The notes beneath the pieces were generated by a model, which was not told where the DNA came from, made no database searches, and saw nothing but the letters and a program-made list of their open reading frames with translations. Shown piece by piece: positions 10,595 through 31,102 of a DNA stretch of 64,000 nt (positions are counted from its first letter, which is position 1; each line of letters opens with the position of its first letter). Both the position numbers and the translations under genes were made by a program. The stretch is taken from contig NZ_JIAV01000015.1 of assembly GCF_000620645.1 (NCBI RefSeq), positions 186,001 to 250,000 of the forward strand, read 5' to 3'. This stretch comes from Nocardioides sp. URHA0032. Lineage in GTDB: Bacteria; Actinomycetota; Actinomycetes; Propionibacteriales; Nocardioidaceae.

Positions 10595-11279
10595 CCAGCC
10601 AGCGCAGCACCACCAGCGCGAGCAGCAGGCCCGCCGCCTGCTTCCAGTACGTCTTCAGGAGCACCGGAAGCACCGCCGCGCCGAGGTCCAGGGAGTCGTC
10701 CTGCGCCGGTGCTGGTGGCGGGGTCGCCGGCGCCTCCGCGACGTGCTTGGGTGCCGGTGTCTCGGGTAGTCCCTGCCCATTCGGTCGTTCGGAGGGCGTC
10801 TCGAGAGCATTTTCGTCAGGGAGTACGCCGCCGGGGGCACCCGAGAGGCGCTGCTCGAGGCAGGCGACGAACTGGCCGAGGAGCTTGTCGGAGACGTCCT
10901 GCATCACGCCGCGGCCGAACTGGGCGGGCTTGCCGGTGATCGACAGGTCGGTGACGACCTCGACGTCGGTGGCCGTCCCGGACCCGGCCATCGTCAGGGT
11001 CACCGTGGCGCCCGCGGTGCCGTTGCCGCGCTTGTCCTTGCCCTTGGCCTCGACGACGAACCGGTGCGCGGACTCGTCCTTCTCCACGAACGTGCCGGAG
11101 CCGTTGTAGACCAGGGCGATCGGGCCGAGCTTGACCTTCACCGAGCCCGCGAACGTGTCCCCGTCGACCGACGTGACGGTGGCACCGGGGAAGCAATCCG
11201 CCACCGACGCGATGTCGTTGAAGTGCGCCCACGTCTCGTCGACCGACGTCGGGACGGTGAACCGGTGGGTCAGGTCCAT
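10575..11279 (-). CDS. coxG: CoxG-like SRPBCC protein with C-terminal membrane anchor
   Basis: A 234-residue protein. Residues 1-150 form a CoxG/SRPBCC domain (MDLTHRFTVPTSVDETWAHF, FAGSVKVKLGPIALVYNGSG, GRGVMQDVSDKLL). CoxG is known to help recruit CO dehydrogenase to the membrane. A proline/alanine-rich linker (about 155-200) leads to a C-terminal helix (AAGLLLALVVLRWLV) with a basic end, which supports membrane anchoring. The ATG overlaps the coxM stop (TGATG at 11277-11281), making it the last gene of the S-L-M-G operon. Part of its linker (codons over 10766-10826) is encoded by a palindromic repeat also found next to lon. Confidence 0.88.
   Translation of the reverse strand: MDLTHRFTVPTSVDETWAHFNDIASVADCFPGATVTSVDGDTFAGSVKVKLGPIALVYNGSGTFVEKDESAHRFVVEAKGKDKRGNGTAGATVTLTMAGSGTATDVEVVTDLSITGKPAQFGRGVMQDVSDKLLGQFVACLEQRLSGAPGGVLPDENALETPSERPNGQGLPETPAPKHVAEAPATPPPAPAQDDSLDLGAAVLPVLLKTYWKQAAGLLLALVVLRWLVSRSRR
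10766..10826. repeat. 61-bp palindromic repeat, copy inside coxG
   Basis: Aligns without gaps to the 61-bp hairpin at 31042-31102. It shares the GTAGTCCCTGCC left arm, the central CTCGAGAGCATTTT and a near-identical right arm (CAGGGAGTAC). Here it is read in frame as part of the coxG linker. Arm complementarity is weaker than in the lon copy. Confidence 0.8.
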
Positions 11280-29259: not shown

Positions 29260-29538
29260 TCAGCAGCCGCCCGCGACCGCCGGGATCACCGAGATCTGGG
29301 TGCCGTCGGGCGTGGGCGTGGCCAGGTTGTCGAGGAAACGCACGTCGTCGTTGTCGACGTAGACGTTGACGAACCTGCGCAGCTCGCCGGACTCGTCGAG
29401 GATCCGGCCCTTGATGCCGCTGTAGTTCCCGTCGAGGTCGTCGAGAACCTCGGCGAGGGTCGCGCCCGAGGCGGTGACCTCGGACTCGCCCCCGGTGTAG
29501 GTGCGCAGGATGGTCGGGATCCGGACGGAGACTGACAT
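29260..29538 (-). CDS. cysO: CysO/MoaD-like sulfur-carrier protein with C-terminal GGC
   Basis: A 92-residue beta-grasp protein close to Mycobacterium CysO: VRIPTILRTYTGGESEVTASG, FVNVYVDNDDVRFLDNLAT and a C-terminus ending in SVIPAVAGGC. In CysO a bare terminal Gly-Gly is thiocarboxylated and donates sulfur to phosphoserine to make cysteine. Here the gene encodes one more residue, Cys, after the GG, confirmed base by base at 29260-29271. It would need trimming, or the tail mimics the CysO-Cys adduct. It follows thrC by 11 bp; there is no cysM or Mec protease gene here. Only 7 bp separates it from the convergent ECF42 gene. Confidence 0.88.
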   Translation of the reverse strand: MSVSVRIPTILRTYTGGESEVTASGATLAEVLDDLDGNYSGIKGRILDESGELRRFVNVYVDNDDVRFLDNLATPTPDGTQISVIPAVAGGC

Positions 29539-29549
29539 GCGAGTCCCTT

Positions 29550-30818
29550 TCAGGCGAGGCCGGTGGCGGCGAAGGCGGCGTACGTCGGTGCGATGGTGGC
29601 CGCCGGGGCGACCGAGCCGGAGACGGCGTCGAGGGTCTTGAGCCCGTGGCCGGTGTTGATGACGACGGTCTCGAGGGACGCGTCGAGCTGGCCGGTCTCG
29701 ACGAGCTTCTTGAGTACGGCGACCGTCGTACCGCCGGCGGTCTCGGTGAAGATGCCCTCGGTGCGGGCCAGCAGCACGATGCCCTCGCGGACCTGGTCGT
29801 CGGTGACGTCCTCGACCGCGCCGCCGGTCCCGCGGCAGATGTCGAGCACGTAGATGCCGTCGGCGGGGTTGCCGATCGCGAGGCTCTTGGCGATGGTGTC
29901 CGGCTTGACCGGCCGGATCGCGTCGACGCCGGCCTTGTAGGCGACGGAGACCGGCGAGCAGCCCTCGGCCTGCGCGCCGAAGACCCGGTACGGCTTGTCC
30001 TCGACCAGGCCGAGCGCGATCAGCTCCTGGAACGCCTTGTGCACCTTGGTCAGCTGCGAGCCGCTCGCGACCGGGATCACGATCTGGTCCGGCAGCCGCC
30101 AGCCGAGCTGCTCGGCGATCTCGTAGCCCAGGGTCTTCGATCCCTCGGCGTAGTACGGGCGGACGTTGACGTTCACGAACGCCCAGCCGTCCTCCTCGCC
30201 GGCGATCTCCGAGGCGAGCTTGTTCACGTCGTCGTAGTTGCCGTCGACCGCGACCAGCGAGTCGGTGAAGACCGCGCTGTTGACCTGCTTGGGCTGCTCG
30301 AGGTTGCTCGGGATGAACACGACGGTCTTGATGCCGGCGCGGGCGCCCGCGGCGGCGACGGCGTTCGCGAGGTTGCCGGTCGAGGGGCAGGCGAAGACCT
30401 TGGCGTGCAGCTCGCGAGCGGCGCTCAGCGCGCAGGCGACCACCCGGTCCTTGAAGGAGTTGGTGGGGTTGGTGGAGTCGTCCTTCACCCACAGGTCGGC
30501 GATGCCGAGCTCGGCGCCGAGGTTGTCCGCCTTGAGGAGCCGGGTGAAGCCGGGCTCCATGTTCGGGCTCTGCTCGATGTCGGACGGGACCGGCAGCAGC
30601 GCCTTGTAGCGCCAGATGTTCGCGGGTCCGGCCTCGATCTGCTCGCGGGTGACCTCGCCGAACTCGTAGGCGATCTCCAGCGGGCCGAAGCACTCCGGAC
30701 ACGCGTAGAAGGGCCCGAGGTCGACCCGGTGGCCGCACTCGCGGCAGGACAGGGCGACGGCGTTGCCGAACGCGCCCTCACGGGTGGTGGATGCCTTCTC
30801 GACGACAGCGGCGCTCAT
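29550..30818 (-). CDS. thrC: Threonine synthase
   Basis: A 422-residue PLP enzyme that converts O-phosphohomoserine to threonine. The N-terminus carries a four-cysteine zinc-ribbon-like element (C25, C28, C40, C43: SCRECG..YACPEC), then the PLP lysine in STNPTNSFKDR (about 101-111) and the phosphate loop VIPVASGSQLTK. Length fits the monomeric actinobacterial type. AGGAGG precedes the ATG. A SAM riboswitch occupies the leader. The gene is followed by a CysO-like sulfur carrier, so the unit links threonine and sulfur-amino-acid metabolism at the O-phosphohomoserine branch point. Confidence 0.95.
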   Translation of the reverse strand: MSAAVVEKASTTREGAFGNAVALSCRECGHRVDLGPFYACPECFGPLEIAYEFGEVTREQIEAGPANIWRYKALLPVPSDIEQSPNMEPGFTRLLKADNLGAELGIADLWVKDDSTNPTNSFKDRVVACALSAARELHAKVFACPSTGNLANAVAAAGARAGIKTVVFIPSNLEQPKQVNSAVFTDSLVAVDGNYDDVNKLASEIAGEEDGWAFVNVNVRPYYAEGSKTLGYEIAEQLGWRLPDQIVIPVASGSQLTKVHKAFQELIALGLVEDKPYRVFGAQAEGCSPVSVAYKAGVDAIRPVKPDTIAKSLAIGNPADGIYVLDICRGTGGAVEDVTDDQVREGIVLLARTEGIFTETAGGTTVAVLKKLVETGQLDASLETVVINTGHGLKTLDAVSGSVAPAATIAPTYAAFAATGLA

Positions 30819-30829
30819 GAGTCCTCCTT

Positions 30830-30971
30830 CTCATCTTCCCCGGCTGCGACGGTCGCGCCGGGCGGAATTGGCACCGTTTCCGCGAACCGCTTCCCGATGT
30901 TCCGGGCGGCGGAGGCTCGCGGCGGTTGCCGGGACTTCACAGGGCCGTATCCCTCTGTCCCTCTGGATGAG
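30830..30971 (-). ncRNA. SAM-I (S-box) riboswitch in the thrC leader
   Basis: Read on the minus strand: a closing helix CTCATC (30966-30971) with GATGAG (30830-30835); then AGAGGGA..ACGGCCCTGTGAAG, the conserved CCCGGCAACC, a variable arm, GGTGCCAATTCC, a GC-rich hairpin (CCGGC..GCCGG) and GGGGAAGATGAG. The order and conserved bases match the S-box aptamer. The 3' strand of the closing helix runs straight into AAGGAGG, the thrC Shine-Dalgarno, and there is no terminator in between, so control is probably at translation. SAM-IV shares some of these motifs and is the alternative class. Confidence 0.87.
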
Positions 30972-30980
30972 CTGTCAGGA

Positions 30981-30986
30981 ACTGTA
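30981..30986 (-). promoter_or_regulatory. -10 box of the riboswitch-thrC-cysO operon
   Basis: TACAGT on the minus strand. Transcription would start about 7 bases on, immediately before the riboswitch closing helix. The rest of the 290-bp lon-thrC gap holds only this, the riboswitch and the lon hairpin. Confidence 0.65.
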
Positions 30987-31041: not shown

Positions 31042-31102
31042 GTAGTCCCTGCCGAAAATGTCGTCGACACGGCGTGTCGAGAGCATTTTGGGCAGGGACT
31101 AC
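31042..31102 (-). repeat. 61-bp palindromic repeat forming a hairpin after lon
   Basis: A 19-bp outer stem with one mismatch (31042-31060 with 31084-31102; GTAGTCCCTGCC and GGCAGGGACTAC ends), a 3x3 internal loop, and a 7-bp inner stem TCGACAC/GTGTCGA with a GGC loop. It begins 8 bp past the lon stop and can act as its terminator. The same 61-bp element occurs inside coxG (10766-10826), so it is a dispersed repeat. Confidence 0.9.

Follow-up and report, generated by a model that had tools for sequence, protein, structure and literature searches.

A SAM-I-family riboswitch aptamer stands ahead of thrC2 and cysO2, which encode a threonine-synthase paralog and a CysO-like sulfur carrier, in the 64,000-nucleotide stretch of Nocardioides DNA analysed here (the window). 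ThrC2 probably makes homocysteine from O-phosphohomoserine, with the sulfur likely drawn from the carrier thiocarboxylate, and the cluster would be switched off by SAM. A broader proposal, also likely if held a little less firmly, is that a methionine route via a ThrC paralog and a CysO-type thiocarboxylate extends across the phylum; that one of the "threonine synthase" genes in Nocardioides, Actinomadura, Streptomyces, Acidimicrobium, and many further actinobacteria is the missing homocysteine synthase; and that the class's main SAM-I riboswitch serves to control it. The link between riboswitch and genes is already known. The accessible part of a Streptomyces lividans reannotation places RF00162 ahead of SLIV_16930-SLIV_16925 and calls these genes threonine biosynthesis (PMC8079986). 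The functional reading is the new part; no proposal of a homocysteine function for ThrC2 was found in the CC-licensed literature, and an earlier subscription report is possible.

A covariance-model search of the whole window (cmscan) places RF00162 at 30828-30973 on the minus strand (65.7 bits, E 4.7e-13, gathering score 44.4, full model 1-108), bearing out the preliminary description, in which a SAM aptamer had been proposed at 30830-30971 of this strand. Only two matches in the window exceed threshold, this one and a tRNA, and the leader is the single RF00162 match in the 4.56 Mb genome. A single-sequence fold of the leader forms P1 from CUCAUC (30966-30971) and GAUGAG (30830-30835) and is more stable than 200 of 200 shuffled sequences (z -3.22). 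Pairing was examined in 24 leaders chosen from 81, in which both P1 strands are conserved. The P1, P2, and P4 pairs of the window fold are formed in 79.6% of cells, versus 34-53% in controls shifted by 1-3 columns, and changes on both sides occur at 10 of 26 pairs. P1 is nearly invariant, helix 4 is paired in just 54% of cells, and P3 was excluded because it does not align. The P1-P4 fold with a conserved core that marks the SAM-I class was thus found, with P3 uncounted and P4 poorly aligned. As in other SAM-I leaders, the match is full length and over the gathering score, and it stands ahead of a likely methionine gene. The window leader differs from the family in having a long P3, in abutting the Shine-Dalgarno sequence, and in having no terminator detected by scanning; judged from its sequence, it is a putative SAM binder.

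The geometry at the start of thrC2 bears on how the switch would act. P1 ends at 30830, 1 nt ahead of the Shine-Dalgarno sequence AGGAGG (30823-30828, minus strand, starting at 30828), which in turn lies 4 nt ahead of the AUG (30818-30816). This spacing and the absence of a detected terminator fit translational control, which is probable and had been suggested earlier from the closing helix adjoining the Shine-Dalgarno sequence. Without P1, the Shine-Dalgarno sequence is more open in 32 of 63 leaders, less open in 14, and similar in 17, a result that leans only weakly to an OFF switch; the remaining 18 of the 81 leaders did not fit the anchor rules. The predicted OFF sign follows the precedent of the family. 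An alternative hairpin around the Shine-Dalgarno sequence, AUGAG/CUCAU, was considered as a conserved element and rejected, as it is absent by eye from, for example, L009, L010, and L012. The preliminary description had also placed a promoter exactly at the 5' end of the aptamer. This was not borne out: a scan found no consensus sigma-70 promoter at the leader, and inspection by eye yields just a -10-like hexamer, TACAGT (30981-30986, minus strand), as an unconfirmed promoter. Immediately past the lon stop codon and ahead of the riboswitch lies a near-perfect inverted repeat of about 61 nt (31042-31102) with arms TAGTCCCTGCC/GGCAGGGACTA; a diverged copy of one arm, with 2 mismatches, is found at 10808-10825.

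The two genes following the leader are those described earlier, a ThrC-like gene (thrC2, 29550-30818, minus strand) and, 11 nt past it, a CysO-like gene (cysO2, 29260-29538, minus strand). ThrC2 exceeds the cut-off of the curated threonine synthase model TIGR00260 (252.6 vs 167.1) and falls under that of PRK08197 (287.9 vs 303). Among the best 120 of at least 7998 scored relatives in public sources, the named close ones are labelled threonine synthase. The preliminary description took the gene for a threonine synthase that competes with methionine synthesis. ThrC2 would then be a second true threonine synthase, SAM would tune the branch point between threonine and methionine, and the carrier would be used elsewhere. 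The TIGR00260 score, the ThrC fold, the retained SFKDR lysine, and the annotation in S. lividans as threonine biosynthesis (PMC8079986) all favor this reading, which we nevertheless consider improbable. A protein search of the same genome finds another threonine synthase, ThrC1, encoded between the homoserine dehydrogenase (hom) and homoserine kinase (thrB) genes, with all three products over their curated cut-offs. This separate hom-thrC-thrB cluster makes the window gene the paralog, and the two proteins share 31% identity. Moreover, repression of a threonine synthase by SAM would cut threonine when methionine is plentiful.

The protein itself also argues against a second threonine synthase. 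A comparison of 80 ThrC2 and 31 ThrC1 sequences reveals 66 positions that differ between the groups and are at least 95% fixed within each, a number that overstates what is special to ThrC2 because the ThrC1 set contains close Nocardioides-type relatives only (L066 was left out). Four N-terminal cysteines are present in 80 of 80 ThrC2 sequences. In 33 of 33 ThrC2 proteins from several classes, R220, Y223, A251, S252, G253, and C287 are invariant; the corresponding residues in 6 ThrC1 proteins are N, R, G, N, A, and A. The catalytic lysine of SFKDR is retained in ThrC2, but conserved ThrC positions are not, with N replaced by R220, R by Y223, and GNAGN by ASGSx. We take these positions to be phosphate/PLP contacts in ThrC. 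Alignments show that the VNPxR, GNAGN, and GQKT motifs are kept by ThrC of Mycobacterium, Aquifex, Thermus, and Bacillus. ThrC2 thus shares the fold, the catalytic lysine, and the TIGR00260 match with threonine synthase, and it differs in its fixed changes, its N-terminal cysteines, its leader, and its neighbors. The structure model (mean pLDDT 85.8) has the ThrC fold, and the 4th-ranked entry of the fold search is a cysteate synthase (9k3c). Cysteate synthase is a ThrC-like enzyme that uses a sulfur nucleophile; ThrC2 shares this kinship, yet lies far below the cut-off of the cysteate synthase model (67.5 vs 324.9 bits). A further ThrC paralog, distinct from ThrC2 and 35-40% identical to it, occurs in genomes G007, G008, G058, G071, and G082.

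The distribution of ThrC2 was examined in a sample of 196 genomes of the class, which served for all class searches. ThrC2 is found in 135 of them; its weakest match is at 6.6e-114, and the next match of another kind is at 5e-73. An RF00162 match in the same orientation immediately precedes ThrC2 in all 135, at a median distance of 43 nt from the protein match. RF00162 occurs without ThrC2 in five more genomes, and a second RF00162 match is present in four ThrC2 genomes. In three genomes with RF00162 and no ThrC2 (G002, G021, and G056), MetY-type genes are found at 0.1 to 3.5 kb from the match, with MetY on the opposite strand in G021. MetX/MetA are missing from 73 of 135 ThrC2 genomes and from 3 of 61 others (Fisher 3.6e-12, uncorrected for phylogeny). 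The curated MetX cut-off of 500 bits is reached by no class genome and by none of 14 control genomes, and so full-length matches above 300 bits were counted, together with two cut by contig ends (G151 and G180). Weaker matches in six genomes, all with ThrC2, were dropped (G017, G046, G080, G119, G187, and G190); counting them changes 73/135 to 67/135.

MetY was scored as present when over the TIGR01326 cut-off. By these rules, 75 genomes lack both MetX/MetA and MetY, and 72 of them carry ThrC2, a pattern that speaks against a second threonine synthase. The three exceptions, G007, G010, and G071, are draft assemblies in 100-970 contigs. In G071 a contig end cuts a weak riboswitch match, and both of the other sampled members of the genus of G010 have ThrC2. 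Within the genus of the window organism, 6 of 13 genomes are without MetX and MetY, and ThrC2 is present in each of them. Just one member of the genus lacks ThrC2, and it has MetX and MetY, no RF00162, and a single CysO-type match. ThrC2 occurs together with MetX/MetA in 62 of 135 genomes, so redundancy is common, which argues against strict replacement.

The genome of the window organism illustrates the gap. MetH is present, MetX and MetA give no match at 1e-10, and no protein is over the MetY cut-off. The recognised methionine route of this genome thus breaks at homocysteine. Only two Cys/Met PLP genes are found. One, L086, is a cystathionine gamma-synthase by model (670.5 vs a cut-off of 513); the other, L087, is nearest the gamma-lyase model and under its cut-off. 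The strong score of L086 raises the prospect that a plant-like cystathionine gamma-synthase acting on O-phosphohomoserine leads to homocysteine and that ThrC2 performs some other methionine-linked step. We regard this as very improbable, since with only two such genes the beta-lyase step stays open, and the leader and carrier of ThrC2 are left unexplained. In addition, the accessible part of one source describes this family in Mycobacterium tuberculosis as bifunctional with gamma-lyase (PMC12910592).

Leaders in other classes provide a further indication of function. At 1e-100 or better, ThrC2 is found in 95 of 246 genomes of the phylum, 84 of them outside the class, and 20 loci were taken from the upper ranks of these 84. 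RF00162 precedes ThrC2 in 16 of the 20. At two others, a T-box takes this position, over threshold at L118 and under it at L108 (75.1 vs 93 bits, E 3.6e-15). The last two, L111 and L112, have ThrC2 and a carrier; no Rfam match to their leaders turns up with E as high as 1, and another regulator may control them. The T-box specifier was read as the triplet one base past GAA in the specifier loop. This position was calibrated on the three other T-boxes of the two genomes, whose downstream genes are over curated cut-offs, and was correct in 3 of 3: AUC, UUC, and GGC (Ile, Phe, and Gly) ahead of citramalate synthase, pheS, and glyQ. Ahead of ThrC2, the specifier is AUG, for methionine, at both L118 and L108. 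A T-box of a threonine gene would be expected to carry ACN. In the tree, the ThrC2 proteins of these two loci group as sisters, and so the two T-boxes probably reflect one replacement event. Together with the hom-linked ThrC1, the altered residues, the co-occurrence pattern, and the carrier found in every ThrC2 genome of the class, the methionine specifier leads us to reject the view that ThrC2 is a genuine threonine synthase that balances the branch point. Of the earlier suggestion that SAM balances threonine, methionine, and cysteine flow, the idea of methionine flow stands and the threonine role falls away, as ThrC2 is likely itself an enzyme of the methionine branch.

Sulfur genes lie near some loci. 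With more flank, the L118 locus (named L127, genome G408) encodes on one strand, at 4144-11407 of L127, a Met T-box, ThrC2, the carrier, a sulfite-reductase-like protein, TusA, AprA, AprB, a 348-aa protein, and sulfate adenylyltransferase. At L137, genes no more than 3 kb away encode an Rrf2 regulator and a nitrite/sulfite reductase. A putative Acidimicrobium ferrooxidans genome (G268, locus L116) has the riboswitch (60 bits), ThrC2, and the carrier; in the part of the source available, this species is named as one without a known homocysteine route (Price et al. 2018).

The identity of the carrier suggests the form in which sulfur is delivered. The nearest solved relatives of the window carrier are 3dwg_C (E 2.7e-27) and 4n6e_B (E 1.5e-25). 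The small chain of 3dwg is presumably M. tuberculosis CysO, and its large chain is listed as cysteine synthase. Elsewhere in the genome, JAMM-, CysO-, and CysM-like genes are adjacent (L005; named from best model and gene order, all under cut-off), and the CysO beside the CysM-like gene is 58% identical to the cysO2 product. The window carrier is thus a second CysO, and two enzyme-carrier pairs coexist in the genome. The window carrier terminates in AVAGGC. Its GGC end (29260-29265) extends one residue past the GG, and relatives end in GG, GGC, GGS, GGSR, GGYR, or GGAR; trimming before sulfur loading may therefore be needed. The carrier gene of L127 (5461-5739) encodes a C-terminus AVAWG in place of GG, as well as an odd F run; the carrier may have diverged, the gene may be decaying, or the assembly may be in error.

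ThrC2 could instead make homocysteine from O-phosphohomoserine and free sulfide, with the CysO-like protein accessory or reserved for other steps. No carrier adjoins ThrC2 in 36 of 135 class genomes or in 2 of the 20 other loci (L108 and L120), which would suit free sulfide, as would the L127 carrier without its GG end. However, those 36 genomes have a CysO-type gene elsewhere, such that a carrier is present in 135 of 135 genomes with ThrC2, as compared to 29 of 61 without. In addition, the carrier lies directly downstream of ThrC2 in 99 of 135 class genomes and adjoins it in 18 of the 20 other loci, and its GG is invariant in 22 aligned carriers. Free sulfide is therefore an unlikely sulfur source, and use of the carrier thiocarboxylate is preferred.

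Two known systems offer models for this chemistry. In M. tuberculosis, CysM joins O-phosphoserine and CysO-COSH to give cysteine, according to the accessible part of PMC12910592. The window cluster resembles the CysM/CysO/Mec system in pairing a PLP enzyme with a CysO-like carrier, and it differs in that its enzyme is a threonine-synthase paralog. The likeness of the pairing extends to a fold-type II PLP enzyme. As a ThrC paralog, the window enzyme is predicted to use O-phosphohomoserine and yield homocysteine, not to use O-phosphoserine and yield cysteine, and by analogy the ThrC2-carrier pair would be the methionine counterpart of CysM/CysO. Protein-thiocarboxylate methionine synthesis was reportedly described by Krishnamoorthy and Begley in 2011 in Wolinella succinogenes, where the enzyme is said to be MetY-like and the acceptor O-acetylhomoserine. 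That route and the one predicted for ThrC2 share the formation of homocysteine from a carrier thiocarboxylate; they differ in that the genome studied here has neither a MetY over cut-off nor any match to MetX or MetA.

Expression data and earlier surveys, each consulted in the part available, touch on the same genes. In S. coelicolor, a list of sulfate-assimilation genes contains SCO4293 (a putative threonine synthase) and SCO4294 alongside cysM, SCO2911, and SCO2912; these genes reportedly have a common transient peak that is absent in an afsS mutant (PMC2267785). From gene order and the riboswitch, we infer that SCO2911/2912 are CysO/Mec and SCO4293/4294 are ThrC2/CysO2. Binding of ArgR upstream of SCO4293 has also been reported (PMC3293853). 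By term count, "threonine synthase" does not occur in the accessible text of a 2006 survey of prokaryotic ubiquitin-like operons (PMC1779556). Counted against the preferred reading are the genomes with both ThrC2 and MetX/MetA, those without an adjacent carrier, the exceptions G007, G010, and G071, the TIGR00260 score, the L127 carrier end, the absence of a recognised leader at L111 and L112, the single T-box event, the genome's own cystathionine gamma-synthase, ArgR upstream of SCO4293, and the mixed Shine-Dalgarno accessibility.

Our analysis allows us to propose a mechanism for the ThrC2-carrier pair. An E1-like enzyme would load sulfur on the carrier C-terminus, and ThrC2 would build the usual PLP intermediate from O-phosphohomoserine. 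In place of the addition of water at the beta carbon, the carrier sulfur would then attack the gamma carbon. Homocysteine would be freed by a Mec-type JAMM peptidase and methylated by MetH. By stabilising P1, the helix that abuts the Shine-Dalgarno sequence, SAM would block translation. Such a source of homocysteine would explain methionine synthesis in many actinobacteria without the textbook enzymes. If this is true, many "threonine synthase" genes are misannotated, predictions of methionine auxotrophy would change for many actinobacteria, and the puzzling "threonine" S-box would be ordinary methionine feedback.
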